Below, piece after piece: positions 43,714 through 54,572 of a stretch of 64,000 nucleotides of DNA. The notes below the pieces were generated by a model. That model was not told the DNA's origin, did not search any database, and worked only from the letters and a program-made list of their open reading frames with translations. The translations under genes were made by a program, and so were the position numbers. Origin of the DNA: an uncultured Lachnospiraceae bacterium (GTDB taxonomy: Bacteria; Bacillota; Clostridia; Lachnospirales; Lachnospiraceae); NCBI GenBank assembly GCA_944383265.1, contig CALWOX010000004.1:124001-188000 (forward strand). The letters are read 5' to 3'. Position 1 is the first letter of the stretch. Every line of letters starts with the position of its first letter.

Positions 43714-44766
43714 ATGAGAAGAATAATTTCTTTTTTGTCAGCAGCTATAACAGCTTTTTCGCTCGCAGCCAGCAGTCAGGTTGATATGCAGCATGAGGAG
43801 GAACTCCCGATAAGTGAAGGCTCAGTGAGTGACAATATTCTTATAGCTTATTTTTCTTGGGCTGAAAATGCAGTACTTCCTGAGGGAGACGGAGAGGCGG
43901 ATGCAGTCTCATCACCAAGTGTCCGTGTGCCGGGTAATGTTCAGCAGCCGGCAGGTTGGATTCAAGAGGAAACAGGAGGTGATCTGTTTTCTATCCGTGT
44001 AACAGAGCCTTACCCGTCCGATTGGGATGCGTGTCTTGAACGGGCTAACGAGGAGAGAGGCAGCAATGCACGGCCTGAGCTTCAGGAGAACATACGTGAT
44101 CCGGAACGATATGACACGGTTTTTCTCGGCTATCCTAACTGGTGGTATGGCGTACCGATGCCATTACTCAGCTTTCTGGATCAAAACGATTTTTCAGGGA
44201 AAAATGTATACTTATTCTGCTCCCATGGTACCGGAGGACTTGCAAACAGTGTAGACCTGATTACAGAGGCTGTGCCTGATGCAATCATTTCAGATAATAT
44301 TTTTGATTGCTGTGAGGAAGACGCCCCTTCATCGGAAGATGATGTGAAATCATGGGTAAATGAACTTGGATTTTTTATTGCTTCAGCAAATCAAAACGAG
44401 CAGGAGGAGGTTTCTATGAGAATATCTGTGACTGACGGAGAAAACAAGGTAGAGTATGAATTAAATAACAGCGGGGCGGCAAGGACCCTTTATGAAATGC
44501 TGCCGCTTACTGTGGGGGTAGAGGATTTCAGCACAAATGAAAAGACTTTTTATCCTCCGAAGGAGCTTCCCTGTGAAGATACACCGCTTGCCGGGACGGA
44601 TGCAGAAGGAGGGACCTTGGCTTATTATGAGCCTTGGGGAGATGTGGTAATGTTTTACGCAGGATATAACGGAAATTCTTCCTTATACGAATTAGGGCAC
44701 GCAGTTTCAGGCACAGACAGTATAAGCAGCCTGTCAGGGACGATCACTATAGAAGCGGTTGAATAA
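43714..44766 (+). CDS. Exported flavodoxin-like + cyclophilin-like fusion protein
   Basis: A 350-residue protein with a short N-terminal hydrophobic signal (MRRIISFLSAAITAFSLAAS). Residues 42-228 form a flavodoxin_4-type domain (DNILIAYFSWAENA, PYPSDWDACLERANEE, DTVFLGYPNWWYGVPMPLLS). Residues 235-350 form a cyclophilin-like beta-barrel (MRISVTDGENKVEYELNNSG, ENTLYEMLP-type, GDVVMFYAGYN). It probably binds FMN at the outside face of the membrane. First structural gene of a redox cassette after LysR; the genes that follow are damaged, but this one is intact. Confidence 0.8.
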   Translation: MRRIISFLSAAITAFSLAASSQVDMQHEEELPISEGSVSDNILIAYFSWAENAVLPEGDGEADAVSSPSVRVPGNVQQPAGWIQEETGGDLFSIRVTEPYPSDWDACLERANEERGSNARPELQENIRDPERYDTVFLGYPNWWYGVPMPLLSFLDQNDFSGKNVYLFCSHGTGGLANSVDLITEAVPDAIISDNIFDCCEEDAPSSEDDVKSWVNELGFFIASANQNEQEEVSMRISVTDGENKVEYELNNSGAARTLYEMLPLTVGVEDFSTNEKTFYPPKELPCEDTPLAGTDAEGGTLAYYEPWGDVVMFYAGYNGNSSLYELGHAVSGTDSISSLSGTITIEAVE

Positions 44767-44818
44767 TATAGCTTTTTCGGTATTTGAATATAATTTTTTA
44801 AATTTGGAGGAACATAGC

Positions 44819-45757
44819 ATGGAACTTAAAAAATTACCTGTGATAGCCATGGGTGCATGGGCATGGGGAAATGACGGAACTTTTGGAGAAAAGCTGACCG
44901 CAGAGGATCTGCGTCCTGTGTTTGACGCTGCTATGAGGGCAGGGCTTAACTTATGGGATACTGCTTATGCATATGGCATGGGTAATTCTGAAAAAATACT
45001 CGGGGAGTTTTTGAAAGACTATCCCCGGGAGAGTGTTATTATTTCTGATAAATTTACACCTCAATGCGCTGAAAGTGATGCGGAAAATGCGGTTATAGAA
45101 CTTTATGAGAAAAGCGCCAAGTTGCTTGGCACAGATGAAACAGACATTTATTGGATACATAATCCTGTAGGAGCACCTGAGTGGACCCGTAAGCTTATCC
45201 CTCTTGCAAAGTCGGGAAAGATAGGATGAATCGGGCTTTCCAACCACAACATGGCCGAGATAAAGGAGGCTTCCGACATATTGGAGGCGGAGGGACTTAA
45301 GATATCCGTCATACAGAACCATTACAGCCTTCTTAATCGTTCCTCGGAGACATCAGGTATCCTTGACTACTGTAAGGAGAATGACATCACCTTCTTTTCC
45401 TATATGGTTTTGGAGCAGGGGGCATTATCGGGAAAATACGATACAAGTCATCCGTTCCCTGCAGATTCCGACAGAGGGGAGGTATATAATCCGATGCTGC
45501 CCGAATTGGAAAAGTTGAACGCTTGCTTAAAGGAGATAGCCGACACTCATGACGTAGCGGCGGCGCAGATACCGATAGCCTGGGCTATTGCAAAGGGAAC
45601 ACTGCCTATTATCGGCGTTACAAAGGTATATCAGGTGGAGGATGCGATAAAAGCTGCCTCATTGAAACTTTCTGAGGAGGAAATTACTCGTATGGAGAAG
45701 CTTTCCGGAGAGATGCAGCTGAATGTGATTCGTTATTGGGAAAAGGAAATGAAATAA
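44819..45757 (+). pseudogene. Aldo/keto reductase gene with an in-frame TGA
   Basis: ATG at 44819 follows GGAGG. Both halves are aldo/keto reductase in one frame: LWDTAYAYG (catalytic Asp/Tyr), VIISDKFTP (Lys), YWIHNPVG (His) before, and IGLSNHNMAEIKEA, HYSLLNRS and PIIGVTKVYQ after. TGA at 45227-45229 (codon 137) replaces the residue between KIG and IGLSNHN, where relatives often have a basic residue; a CGA-to-TGA change would explain it. The whole would be 312 residues, the usual length. Without readthrough only the first third is made. No convincing SECIS hairpin follows the TGA, so selenocysteine is not favoured. Confidence 0.85.
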
Positions 45758-49066: not shown

Positions 49067-49247
49067 GGTAATATTTCCGGACAATTTTGCATCATAAGTC
49101 CATTAACGGGAAATGCTGTTGACAGCAAATTAAATTCATAGTAAGTTGATAGACAAATAATGCAAATATCTCCTGACGAGTATCCGGCCGGTGCCTGCTC
49201 AGCTTGATTTTGACTTATTTTATAAAGGCATTTTGGAGGGAACGATT

Positions 49248-52200
49248 ATGAGGCCAAAGATGGCAAGGCGCTTTTTAGCTCTTGCTTTATCTGCAGTGAT
49301 GATACTTGAATCAGGAGTTACTTCATTAGCCGCCGAAAGCAGTGCGGCTTTTGAGAATGCTTCAGATCAGTCAGGATCGGAGGCAGAAGCTGTTGACAGT
49401 TTACCTGAGGCTGCGGAAAAGGAAGAAGCAAGTAGTGAGAAAGAAAGCCTGAAAGATGAGAATGTACTAAAAGAAAGCGATGAAAATCAAAAAAACGAAA
49501 ATGTAGTTAATGAAAATAATGAAAACCGAAAAGACGAGAATGAAACAGGTGAGGATGCTACAGATACAGATATTAAAGAAAATCCCGAAAGTGTAGAAAA
49601 AGAGAGCACTGATGTGAGAGATAATAAAAGCTCTTCAGAAGATGAAAGCTCTGTCGAAGATGATAAGCTAAAAGATGATAAGTTAAAAGATGATAAGACA
49701 GAAAAGGATATAAGCTTAGAATATCCGGCACAGAGATTCGTAAAGAAGGTAGGGAATGTAAAGATAACTGTGGAAGCTCCTGCCGGAGCGTTTCCCAAGG
49801 GAACACGCCTTAAGGTAAAAAAAATAAGATCCTCAGCGGTCATTGAGGAGATAAAGGAAGCATCAGGCAAAAAGCATATCACACGCTCTGATATAAAGGC
49901 ATATGATTTTAATTTTTATACTGATGAAGAGGAAAATATAGAGCCCTTAAAGGAGATATCCGTTCGCTTCACAAATCTTAATATTAAGGAAAACAGAGAG
50001 ATATCTGTATTCCACATGGAAGATGAAAAATCCATAGCCGATCCTATAGATGCGGATTATACCGAGGATGAGTCAGGCGCTGTAGAACTCAGCGTTTCTG
50101 ACTTTTCTATATATGCAATACTTGAGACACCTGAGGAAGATGAAGAATCGCCTGCCGCATCTCCGTCGGAGGCTGCGGAGGAGGAACCTGAATTCGGCAA
50201 TACGGCAAATTATGATTCATCTTTAAACCTTGCTGACGGAAATGATTCGTTTTTCGGAGGGGAGTTAATATACCTTTACAATGAGCTTTCGATATCGGGA
50301 AACGAGGCCGCGGTACCTGCAGGCAGCTATACTGTCATAAGGCTTTCAAAGGACAAATTTACAGCCCCGAAGAGGACTGACATATCTGCTACCTTTGAGA
50401 GGATAGACAACATAGAGATAACGGAAAATGATTCTGAATATATAATAAAAACCATATATAAGGAGCTTTACGGAGGCTTTACAGGCGCAACTCCTTTAAA
50501 GGTAAGCCTTAAAGCGGGAAAGACCGAGAACCTGACAAAAGCTGTAATAAATCAGGAATATTACAGTCCGAAGGGCAAAAAGCTTTCAGAGAGCGAGGTT
50601 GAGGTAAACGGTAAAGCGGCGATAGAAACCGTTTATGGAGCAAACTACTCGGCTGAGGCTCTTAAGCTTGAACAGGCTGATGACAAATACGTTATAAAGC
50701 AAGGTGTATACATCTCTTTCAGGCCTAACAGTATCTCCAGACCTAATGCAAATATGGTAGATCCCAGAGAAAGGCGTATATATGTCCGGATACCGAAGGG
50801 AACGAAGATAAAGGAAAACACAGGATGGAGCTATGAGGAAAGCAGCGGAAGATATTTTAAGGACATCAACAGAGTCATAGAGCTCGACGATTTCACTGTG
50901 GCGCTGGATATTTCAGGCAATGATTACACCTTATATGATACTGCTCAAAGGCCAATGAGATATGATGTAAAATATTCCATGAGCCCTATAAAGGACGGAT
51001 TGGTGAAAAATGACCTCGGACCTGCAGAGGCTACTGTGACAAAGTACTATTACCTTCCGAAAAAGGCTATCATAAAGGATGCATACCACAGCATATTTAC
51101 TGCCAGATATCGTATGTATATAGGCAAAGACAATAATGCTCTCAAAGGAAGATCATGGGACGGGGAAAGCGGTGTAAATCTTCCCTATGACAGCTCACAG
51201 CTTTCGGAGGTCAGAGCAGCCTTTGAGCACAGAGTCATATCAAATATTTCCATTTATAACCCGAAGGATGATACCGAGCTGTGGAAGTTTGTGATAAAGT
51301 CAAGCGTTACAGATGTCCCCGGATATACATATCCGAGCGAAATACGTCTTAACATAAGAGGACTTGGGGAAGACAGCGATTTCCTTAAGGAGAAGCTTGA
51401 AGGTACCAAGGCTTACGGAATAAAATATGACGGAACGAAGGAGCTCATTTCTGATAATGTCCCCATAATAACGAGCGAAAATCGTACGACATCTCTCGGA
51501 GAAGAGGACCTTGCCAAATTTGACGGCAGGGAGTATAAGTCTGTAGAGTTTGTCTATCCGGGGGACGGAATAGTACTTACCGGAAAGGATGAGATCTATA
51601 AATACAGTACAGCTTTTTACACCCTTGTGATCGCGGACATAAGGCCTGATATCCTTGTTGATCTGAAAAAGCTTATAAGTGAAAATAAGATCCCTCAGAT
51701 AAACGGTATTCAAAGAAATGCTCCGGGATACTCCGTATATGATGATTTTTCTCGAGTTTTTTACGAGATCACATACAAGGTAAAGGATGACGATACGAGT
51801 CAGACTACCCAAAAGGGTTCTCAACTTTCCGATACCGACAGCGTTTTCAGGCTTCAATATGATTATATATCAAGAGCTAATGATATAGGAATCACGAATG
51901 GATCAAGCTTTTATGTGGATGATATAGTGACCTCAAGGACCGCATATACCCACACAAGATACGGAAGCTTTGCGGATGCTACCGAGCCGGAAAATCTTAA
52001 CCTGTATTATCTGGTACCTGACGGATTGGAGCCTATAGATGACCCTGAAATGTTCAAGGAGCTTGAGGTAATAAGAGGCTATCTTCCCGGAAAGAATCTT
52101 GTGGTGGCAAAGCCTGAAACCATGCATGTGCCATATATCACAGATTTAAACAGGAATTCCTCTTCCGCGTCAGAGACCAATTACTACGCTCTGAGTTTTA

Positions 52201-54470
52201 AGGTGACAGAAAGGCTTGACATAGGAAGCTACAATATAAGCGCCGCAGTTGCCTTTGACAATAACCGAATAGACGTAAAAAATGGCAGACAGTATGGAAT
52301 ACTGAATAATGACACGCCTTCCGGTGATTGGGCCGATTTAAATAAAAATGCCCGAAACAGACCTGAGGACGACTCCAAATTCACAGGCTTACGTTCAGCC
52401 GCCTTTTCCGTATATCCTCCCAAGGTGCTTGTGCCTATGAAATCTGTAAAACTTTCATCAGAGCCTGATACCGCTTATGCATCATCGGTTGGTAAAAAGG
52501 CTACTATAGGAACTGAGATAGATTACAGATGGAGGCTTCAGAATAACAGCACACAGGCTATAAAGAACCTTACAATAATAGACATATTGCCCTACGCAGG
52601 GGACAAAGCCATAGTTGAAAATGCGGCAAAGGAATATCCTCAGAGAGGCTCGAAATTTAAGACTCCTCTCATAGGTATGGAGCCGCAGGATAAATTTGAT
52701 ATATATTATTCAACGGATGCGGTAAAGAGCACAACGGCGGAAAACAGGGACGCAAACTGGTCGGATACTGTGGAGGATATGTCAAAGGTGACAATGATAA
52801 AGGCTGTCCTGAAGGACGGGCAGACCTTGGGCGTAAATGAAAAGTATGACATAGTAACCCATAATCGTATAGAAAACAGTAATACCATAAATGACGGGGA
52901 TAAGGCTTACAATTCCTTTGCCATAAGTACAAATAACGGTGCTGTGTTTATTGAGGGACTTAAGACCGAGGTGGCTGTGACCTACCCCAAGAAGGATGTT
53001 TCCGTAATAAAAACTGATGAGGATGACAGCTCCGTAAGGCTTGAGGGAGTTACCTTTGACCTTTATGAGGCAGGAAGCGACAAGCCTGTAAAGGAGGAGC
53101 TGAAGACAGACAGAAACGGACATTTTGTGATTCCGAATCTCCTTGTAGGCAAGGACTATTATCTCATAGAGACCTCCACACTTGAGGGTTACGAGCTCTC
53201 GGATGAGAAGATCCCCTTTACTGTGACTGCAGGAGAAACTCCTGTAGAGGTCATGATAAATAATAAAAAGGAGAGGACCGAGGTCACTGTAAAGAAGGAA
53301 TGGATAGGCAAAGAATCCGACTATGCAGGAGTGATACTGCTTGCTGACGGTGTTGAGAAGGAGAGGGCAAAACTTACAAGGGCTGATGATTGGAGCCATA
53401 CCTTCACAGATCTAAGAAAGACTGATCCCGCAACAGGAAAGGAGATAAGCTACACTGTAGAGGAGGCGGGAGCGGATTCTGAAGGAAAAGTAAGACTATC
53501 CGATGGAGTTTACAGCTTCAGTGTTTCAGGAAATGCCGAGGACGGTTATATTATTACCAACAAAAGACTTCCGGAAACCAAGCCTGATCCCGAGCCCGAT
53601 CCAAATCCGGATCCTGATCCCGAAAAACCTTCCAAAGGCGGAAGAAGCGGAGGTGGCGGTGGAGACGGCACAGGCGGAGGTAAAAATATAAACCCCACAC
53701 CTTCCATGACGCCTGAACCCATACCTGTACCGGAAAATGATACACCTGTGACAGAGGTGCCGGGAGATGTTCCTCCCGCTCCTTGGTATAAGCTTCCCGT
53801 TATGGGAGATACTCAATTCGGTCCGGGCTTTGTCCATGAGGAAAAGGACGAGGTGAATGTTGCGGAATCAGAGAAGGAGAGACCTGTAATAGATCAGCTT
53901 AAGGGCTTATACGAGCAAAACAACGACCTTTCGGGTTGGCTGACTGTTCCCGGAACAGGCTTCGGATATCCTGTAATGAACAGCCCCTATGCCCCGTATT
54001 ATTATCAGCATCATACCTTTATGAAAAATGCGGATGAGGTGGGAATACCCTTTACAGGCCCCTACTCAAACGCTCAGAGCATGAATGTACTGATACACGG
54101 CCACAATATGAAGGATGTATCTCAATTCGGATATATCTGGAATTATCAGTACAAGAGCTTCAGGGACAAAAATCCCGTCATAGATTTTAAGACTCTCTAT
54201 GATGATAAGGGAAGCTATGAGGTCATGGCTGTATTCTTTGCTCCTGAATACCCGGAGGGTACAAAGGATGTATTCTGGTGGTACAGATACATAGGAGATA
54301 TGAACAAGGAACAGTTTGAGTACTTTGTCAGAAACGCAAAGGCGGCGTCACTCTATGATACCGGAGTGAATGCCGAATTCGGAGACAAGCTCATAACCCT
54401 TGAGACCTGCGCATCATCCACAGACAGTACAAGACTTGTGGTAGTGGCAAAAAAGCTGAACAAAGAATAA
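49248..54470 (+). CDS. Giant secreted CnaB adhesin fused to a C-terminal class B sortase
   Basis: ATG at 49248 follows GGAGGG. The product has 1740 residues. Order: signal peptide (1-29, ending SLAAES); acidic repeat-rich stalk (30-165); a ZU5-like domain (170-290; VEAPAGAFPKGTRLKVKK); a long beta-rich middle (320-1240); two CnaB domains (about 1245-1343 with VRLEGVTFDLYEAG, and 1344-1440 with TVKKEWIG); a Pro/Asp and Gly linker; LPVMGD at 1516-1521; and a class B sortase domain (1545-1740). The sortase keeps catalytic His1619 (HGHNM), Cys1721 (TLETC) and Arg1729 (STRLVV). No C-terminal membrane helix or basic tail follows. An adhesin that carries its own sortase is unusual; anchoring itself or others is inference. 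Confidence 0.88.
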   Translation: MRPKMARRFLALALSAVMILESGVTSLAAESSAAFENASDQSGSEAEAVDSLPEAAEKEEASSEKESLKDENVLKESDENQKNENVVNENNENRKDENETGEDATDTDIKENPESVEKESTDVRDNKSSSEDESSVEDDKLKDDKLKDDKTEKDISLEYPAQRFVKKVGNVKITVEAPAGAFPKGTRLKVKKIRSSAVIEEIKEASGKKHITRSDIKAYDFNFYTDEEENIEPLKEISVRFTNLNIKENREISVFHMEDEKSIADPIDADYTEDESGAVELSVSDFSIYAILETPEEDEESPAASPSEAAEEEPEFGNTANYDSSLNLADGNDSFFGGELIYLYNELSISGNEAAVPAGSYTVIRLSKDKFTAPKRTDISATFERIDNIEITENDSEYIIKTIYKELYGGFTGATPLKVSLKAGKTENLTKAVINQEYYSPKGKKLSESEVEVNGKAAIETVYGANYSAEALKLEQADDKYVIKQGVYISFRPNSISRPNANMVDPRERRIYVRIPKGTKIKENTGWSYEESSGRYFKDINRVIELDDFTVALDISGNDYTLYDTAQRPMRYDVKYSMSPIKDGLVKNDLGPAEATVTKYYYLPKKAIIKDAYHSIFTARYRMYIGKDNNALKGRSWDGESGVNLPYDSSQLSEVRAAFEHRVISNISIYNPKDDTELWKFVIKSSVTDVPGYTYPSEIRLNIRGLGEDSDFLKEKLEGTKAYGIKYDGTKELISDNVPIITSENRTTSLGEEDLAKFDGREYKSVEFVYPGDGIVLTGKDEIYKYSTAFYTLVIADIRPDILVDLKKLISENKIPQINGIQRNAPGYSVYDDFSRVFYEITYKVKDDDTSQTTQKGSQLSDTDSVFRLQYDYISRANDIGITNGSSFYVDDIVTSRTAYTHTRYGSFADATEPENLNLYYLVPDGLEPIDDPEMFKELEVIRGYLPGKNLVVAKPETMHVPYITDLNRNSSSASETNYYALSFKVTERLDIGSYNISAAVAFDNNRIDVKNGRQYGILNNDTPSGDWADLNKNARNRPEDDSKFTGLRSAAFSVYPPKVLVPMKSVKLSSEPDTAYASSVGKKATIGTEIDYRWRLQNNSTQAIKNLTIIDILPYAGDKAIVENAAKEYPQRGSKFKTPLIGMEPQDKFDIYYSTDAVKSTTAENRDANWSDTVEDMSKVTMIKAVLKDGQTLGVNEKYDIVTHNRIENSNTINDGDKAYNSFAISTNNGAVFIEGLKTEVAVTYPKKDVSVIKTDEDDSSVRLEGVTFDLYEAGSDKPVKEELKTDRNGHFVIPNLLVGKDYYLIETSTLEGYELSDEKIPFTVTAGETPVEVMINNKKERTEVTVKKEWIGKESDYAGVILLADGVEKERAKLTRADDWSHTFTDLRKTDPATGKEISYTVEEAGADSEGKVRLSDGVYSFSVSGNAEDGYIITNKRLPETKPDPEPDPNPDPDPEKPSKGGRSGGGGGDGTGGGKNINPTPSMTPEPIPVPENDTPVTEVPGDVPPAPWYKLPVMGDTQFGPGFVHEEKDEVNVAESEKERPVIDQLKGLYEQNNDLSGWLTVPGTGFGYPVMNSPYAPYYYQHHTFMKNADEVGIPFTGPYSNAQSMNVLIHGHNMKDVSQFGYIWNYQYKSFRDKNPVIDFKTLYDDKGSYEVMAVFFAPEYPEGTKDVFWWYRYIGDMNKEQFEYFVRNAKAASLYDTGVNAEFGDKLITLETCASSTDSTRLVVVAKKLNKE
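49659..49697 (+). repeat. 15-bp tandem repeat in the adhesin stalk
   Basis: Units of GATGATAAGCTAAAA occur about 2.6 times, coding for DDKLK repeats in the acidic stalk. They could vary in number between strains. Confidence 0.85.
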
Positions 54471-54494
54471 GTAAAGAATATATAAAGAATAATT

Positions 54495-54558
54495 AAAAAA
54501 GGCACACTGATTTTTCTTATCCTGTAAACAGGATGGAAAATGACAGTGCGTCTTTTTT
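54495..54558. terminator. Bidirectional terminator between convergent genes
   Basis: A long hairpin with stems ATCCTGT/ACAGGAT (54519-54534) and CACTG/CAGTG, with A-run on one side and T-run on the other, so it serves both the adhesin gene and the flavodiiron gene. Confidence 0.88.
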
Positions 54559-54572
54559 ATAAATTTTATCCT

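Follow-up and report, generated by a model that had tools for sequence, protein, structure and literature searches.

The 1740-residue surface protein described here is an adhesin in which a built-in class B sortase occupies the position of the anchor tail, and it is read as a self-processing adhesin, a reading to which we give a probability of about 0.5, the reaction being inferred in the absence of activity data. Its gene lies in the window, by which the whole analysed stretch of 64,000 nucleotides from an uncultured Lachnospiraceae bacterium is meant. The architecture, its recurrence, the conserved LPxMG, the conserved catalytic residues, the class B fold and the purifying selection are matters of observation. 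Sequence comparison supports the view that adhesins with a class B sortase of their own where the anchor tail would be constitute a recurrent protein family, and among self-attachment, cross-linking of copies and release as an enzyme, which a sequence-only reading of this DNA had listed side by side, it favours self-processing, although data on the reaction are lacking.

The fusion gene, of which relatives are known, is one open frame on the + strand, as are all features given below, running from the ATG at 49248 to the stop codon ending at 54470. A ribosome-binding site, GGAGGG, is read directly at 49235..49240, 7 nt ahead of the ATG, and the gene end is marked by a strong terminator-like hairpin with a T run directly past the stop (54494..54559; -29 kcal/mol, z -8). 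The N-terminal signal peptide expected of wall-anchored proteins is recognized by hydropathy at residues 1-28 (49248..49331), with a likely cut at SLA|AE that was inferred by inspection. It is followed by an acidic low-complexity stretch and then by about 900 residues without an assigned domain (residues 321-1245, 50208..52982), which are homologous to proteins of two related genomes, G415 and G413, at 56-58% identity and contain only a weak match to a DUF11-type repeat at residues 1084-1115; an AlphaFold2 model of residues 321-1249 from three sequences reached a pLDDT of 39 and was discarded. The tripeptide YPK (residues 1246-1248, 52983..52991), a possible acceptor lysine, stands just ahead of a SpaA domain (residues 1250-1341, 52995..53270; Pfam, E 1.2e-16), to which a Cna_B domain (residues 1346-1439, 53283..53564; Pfam, E 2.4e-11) and a Pro/Gly-rich linker ending in PGDVPPAPWYK (residues 1440-1515, 53565..53792) are joined. 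The linker leads into the sorting-signal-like motif LPVMG (residues 1516-1520, 53793..53807), after which a flexible connector of about 27 residues beginning DTQFGPGF (53808..53888; pLDDT <50 in the predicted structure) reaches the class B sortase domain, which was delimited by profile, fold comparison and predicted structure and takes up the last part of the protein (residues 1548-1740, 53889..54467).

No membrane helix besides the signal peptide was found by hydropathy over the full length, the sole hydrophobic segment being N-terminal; the membrane helix and basic tail that would follow a sorting motif are absent after LPVMG, and no PF00746 match is listed for the protein. The sequence-only reading, which had described a single polypeptide uniting a CnaB stalk with a class B sortase, a signal peptide as its only membrane link, and LPVMGD at residues 1516-1521 in the anchor position ahead of a sortase with His1619, Cys1721 and Arg1729, is thus borne out by the uninterrupted 1740-residue frame, the SpaA, Cna_B and Sortase profiles, the hydropathy and the positions themselves. 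The neighbours are metabolic genes unrelated to the fusion, which is preceded by a molybdopterin oxidoreductase and a ferredoxin and followed, on the opposite strand, by a flavodiiron-type protein; PADLOC returned no match. Elsewhere in the window, an aldo/keto reductase at 44759-45757 is distributed over two frames (profile positions 2-113, then 143-289), which probably reflects a disrupted gene or an error in sequencing.

By sequence and predicted fold, the C-terminal domain is a class B sortase. The Sortase profile of Pfam covers residues 1565-1736, and the NCBIfam class B model TIGR03064 matches at E 1e-23 with 83.8 bits, below its equivalog cut-off of 153.75 bits, so that the enzyme is to be regarded as a divergent class B member. 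The best 19 Foldseek matches of the predicted sortase core are all SrtB enzymes, with S. aureus SrtB 1qwz at E 1.3e-17, and the nearest solved structures found by sequence are likewise all SrtB. The triad of His1619 (54102..54104), Cys1721 (54408..54410) and Arg1729 (54432..54434) is invariant across 62 aligned sortase domains, of which 51 belong to free-standing relatives. Judged from the pairs with unsaturated dS, the only ones used, the sortase core has a dN/dS of 0.056-0.092, which indicates purifying selection on the fused domains; the N-termini visibly diverge more. The own N-terminal membrane anchor and the free-standing state that are typical of SrtB are both missing. Four changes in the His and Cys motifs run through the whole clade of fused domains and are absent from free-standing relatives, namely Ser/Thr to Glu1719, Tyr to His1617, Met to Gln1626 and Tyr to Ser1723. 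Glu1719 (54402..54404), two residues ahead of the cysteine, is Ser or Thr in 51/51 free-standing relatives and occupies the site matching Ser207 of C. difficile SrtB (6kyc is a deposited structure of the S207A mutant), so that the sortase activity could be altered.

The motif in front of the enzyme had been taken for a sorting-like remnant, and this part of the earlier description was not upheld: LPxMG is retained right ahead of the sortase in 11/11 fused proteins, including two in which the linker has otherwise diverged, and LPVMG is therefore a conserved element. Methionine stands at P1 throughout and threonine never, and only seven linker positions are invariant, of which four are the L, P, M and G of the motif. 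The two proteins of genome G407 share just 12/52 and 9/51 linker residues with the window protein while matching the motif at 4/4 (chance 0.0018 and 0.0005), and a chance occurrence of LPVMG was dropped from consideration. LP.[MT]G in frame was found in none of the 69 other sortase loci of a scan over about 85,000 species. Ordinary sorting signals of the genus read SIPKTGD (genome G000), DIPKTGD (G415) and VPKTGD (G413), and all three continue into a membrane helix and a basic tail; those of the own genome were sought by the PF00746 profile only. Since P-x-x-G-D is common to LPVMGD and the PKTGD signals, the former is best read as an altered yet conserved sorting site. We know of no sortase substrate with methionine at the cleaved position.

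A search of genomes for this order of domains, which had been proposed as a check, revealed a recurrent family: the linker-motif-sortase module forms the C-terminus of at least 11 proteins from 6 genomes, with up to four per genome. Within a genus sample of 25 genomes, G413 has four members (1683, 1394, 1567 and 488 aa), G415 two (1847 and 682 aa) and G407 two (1482 and 1724 aa), while the own genome has only one. The wide scan, which covered about 85,000 species at one genome per species and used two short peptide patterns for selection, yielded two more members, from contigs bearing the names uncultured Blautia and Candidatus Enterocloster faecavium; past these, identity falls from 55% to 44%, the complete relatives are all short frames of about 260-530 aa, and in the complete non-member sortases the motif is always missing and an N-terminal hydrophobic segment of their own is nearly always present. 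Further clade members were not detected in samples of 397 family, 295 order and 398 phylum genomes; viral contigs yielded no relative, plasmids no sortase at 60% identity or more (best 40%), and horizontal transfer by phage was dropped for want of evidence. In a tree of 68 sortase domains, the clade of 12 forms a single group on a long stem with support 100/99. Most members come from metagenome assemblies. Two further clade members look decayed and show a sortase part without LPxMG in frame, one a frame of 235 aa (L067:3386-4090, genome G412) and the other a fragment (L068:6338-7300, genome G397).

The N-termini of the 11 members belong to four or five types, comprising a CnaB adhesin type (window, G415, G413), an LRR-vWA-DUF7601 type (G413, G407, locus L082), an LRR and/or CnaB-DUF7601 type with a repeat region (G413, G407), a short DUF7601 type (G415, locus L081) and a short form of 488 aa (G413). 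BLASTP between the types gave no match or matches only in common domains, and with such different N-termini on the same module, linker, motif and sortase together behave as an anchor cassette. In both G413 and G415, the short member (488 and 682 aa, respectively) is preceded by the same pair of genes (L062:1446-5094 and L064:534-4730), one for a membrane protein that resembles O-antigen ligases (Wzy_C) and one for an exported Amidase_2; a functional unit involving wall polymers is possible. Another genome of the genus, G400, presents four classical Gram_pos_anchor proteins (frames of 555-2129 aa) and a sortase on one contig (C7, 21906-62777), unlike the fusion-bearing genomes, which have few or no Gram_pos_anchor proteins above the cut-off.

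Other arrangements of the same parts were encountered. On contig C10 of G415 (L190:681-5915), a PKTGD adhesin gene, whose N-terminal end seems to be divided between two frames, overlaps a free-standing srtB gene, which is likely a precursor arrangement. A 4349-aa frame of G413 (C1, 265434-278480, L194:435-13481, - strand) joins a SpaA adhesin, an intact VPKTGD, a helix, a basic tail, more hydrophobic segments and a divergent sortase domain, and is a second, separate adhesin-sortase fusion in a genome that also holds clade members. In G756, from another family, a 1670-aa frame (C6, L201:2229-7238, - strand) combines a SpaA adhesin, VPQTGD, a helix, a basic tail, a second helix and a class B sortase; a junction search of 150 genomes of that family found this single case of the type. 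On inspection, frames of 663 aa (G264), 646 aa (G344) and 533 aa (L154) proved not to be adhesin fusions. The G413 and G756 fusions stand apart from the window clade and exemplify the first step to be expected, and we infer that the order of events may have led from neighbour genes, through a fusion with both helices, to the loss of the helices in the LPxMG type.

According to the proposed mechanism, the protein would be exported via its signal peptide, which is presumed to be cleaved, and the C-terminal class B sortase domain would fold outside the membrane. Cys1721 would then attack the adjoining LPVM|GD, of the same chain or of a twin, to form an adhesin-enzyme thioester, the cut after Met1519 and the action in cis being inferred. 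The adhesin would be passed to an amine of a cell-wall precursor, or of another copy, and the enzyme part of about 220 residues, from Gly1520 onward, would be let go; the built-in enzyme would hence substitute for the membrane helix, the basic tail and a separate sortase. Most class B sortases anchor proteins to peptidoglycan, which is for this reason the likeliest acceptor, although only by inference. Possible sortase nucleophiles are listed in PMC11987632, where the P2' Asp of NPKTGD is also reported as required by B. anthracis SrtB and modelled against Tyr39 of its N-terminal helix. The chain after the window motif leads via the flexible connector to that same N-terminal helix, so that a cis geometry is plausible. 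The replacement of Thr by Met at P1 goes together with the clade-wide changes near the catalytic His and Cys, a pattern that would be expected of an adapted enzyme-substrate pair. That each fused adhesin cuts and attaches itself is considered probable. Against this stand the P1 methionine without known precedent, the Glu at the Ser207 site, the motif left unplaced in the predicted structure, and the fact that nothing visible would hold the protein at the membrane after the signal peptide has been cut. The AlphaFold model of the C-terminus, run to see whether LPVMG reaches Cys1721, has a core pLDDT mostly >85 and linker residues at about 50 or lower; LPVMG was not placed, so that the model speaks neither for nor against cis docking.

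The main rival to self-anchoring is polymerization, in which the sortase would join Met1519 to a lysine of the next copy, such as Lys1248 of YPK, so that copies or paralogues form a pilus-like fibre, each with its own polymerase. There is a precedent in the class B sortase Spy0129, which polymerizes group A streptococcal pili (PMC3019223), and YPK directly precedes SpaA and is invariant in the three CnaB-type members, although the full WxxxVxVYPK pilin motif is not seen. The CnaB, LRR-vWA and LRR/CnaB/DUF7601 members of G413 also lie near each other (C1, 351-366 kb), in the manner of a backbone and tip-adhesin set, yet they do not make one operon-like block, the first being about 4 kb from the rest; YPK is missing from the eight other members, which have the same module, and the own genome has no second member, which leaves a fibre unlikely. 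It is rather improbable that the C-terminal enzyme, released or tethered, instead anchors other proteins (paralogues or PKTG proteins), LPxMG being merely a release site. Soluble sortase domains are able to work in trans under in vitro conditions, and candidate substrates exist in the four members of G413 and in a separate IPKTGD protein of G000; but G000 and G415 retain separate membrane-bound SrtB-type genes, in G415 adjoining the PKTGD adhesin, and the clade-specific changes near the active site argue against a common PKTGD substrate.

That the sortase domain is catalytically idle, serving as a wall-binding or structural cap, would agree with the Glu at -2 before Cys in every member and with the two decayed-looking relatives of G412 and G397. 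This proposal is quite doubtful in view of His, Cys and Arg in 12/12 clade members compared, the G412 copy included, of a dN/dS of 0.06-0.09, and of an LPxMG kept independently of the linker. An assembly join, or a stop codon lost between two neighbour genes, could be suspected from the use of metagenome-assembled genomes and from relatives in which adhesin and srtB adjoin, as in the overlap of G415. It is scarcely credible against eleven independent copies in several assemblies, which share 52-82% identity in the C-terminal module, fall into one clade with a long stem and all lack the membrane helices expected if a stop had merely been lost; the join that would have refuted the fusion is thereby contradicted. 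Self-processing remains the preferred account.

Compared with known SrtB enzymes (TIGR03064; S. aureus 1ng5/4lfd; C. difficile; Spy0129), the window enzyme has the same fold, His-Cys-Arg triad, TLxTC pattern and P-x-[T/M]-G(-D) type of motif, whereas those enzymes stand alone and each possess an N-terminal membrane helix and this one is the C-terminus of a secreted adhesin, scores below the equivalog cut-off, has Glu for Ser/Thr before Cys and expects Met rather than Thr at P1. With LPxTG/PKTG wall-anchored adhesins (CnaB, SpaA, LRR, vWA), the fused proteins share N-terminal domain types, signal peptide, Gly/Pro stalk and motif position, but the enzyme stands where the membrane helix and basic tail should follow. 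Sortase-assembled pilins (SpaA, Spy0128/FctA) have the same CnaB domains, with YPK in the CnaB-type members and DUF7601/FctA-like domains in others, and a class B polymerase is not without precedent; here, however, the gene cluster lacks a separate pilin sortase, and substrate and polymerase are one chain. The direct fusions of G413 (4349 aa) and G756 (1670 aa) equally unite adhesin and sortase in one open frame but keep an intact sorting signal (VPKTGD or VPQTGD) with its helix and tail as well as the sortase's own helix, and each was seen once. A further likeness is to an engineered construct, STEPL (Warden-Rothman 2013, as cited in PMC11561820), in which target, LPETG motif, linker and sortase follow in the same order in one chain that releases and ligates its own target; STEPL is man-made with a class A sortase, while the fused adhesins are natural, class B and LPxMG, and by analogy look like a natural version of the engineers' trick. 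No description of a natural adhesin-sortase fusion of this kind was found in the open-access literature, most subscription journals being outside the scope, which agrees with the earlier statement that no system with this order had been described.

In sortase biology, a separate membrane enzyme serves many substrates, whereas here each adhesin brings its own. The grades from neighbour genes through a fusion with helices to the loss of helices suggest how such a machine may arise. At about even odds, these proteins represent a natural class of self-anchoring surface proteins, in which a single-turnover class B sortase behind its own LPxMG replaces the whole wall-sorting tail and whose cassette has moved onto several adhesin types in one Lachnospiraceae lineage of gut bacteria. 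If this is true, anchoring would be possible without a membrane-held sortase and without a hydrophobic sorting tail, it would become testable whether class B sortases act in cis or in trans, and a natural self-ligating tag with the new motif LPxM|G would be available beside LPETG.
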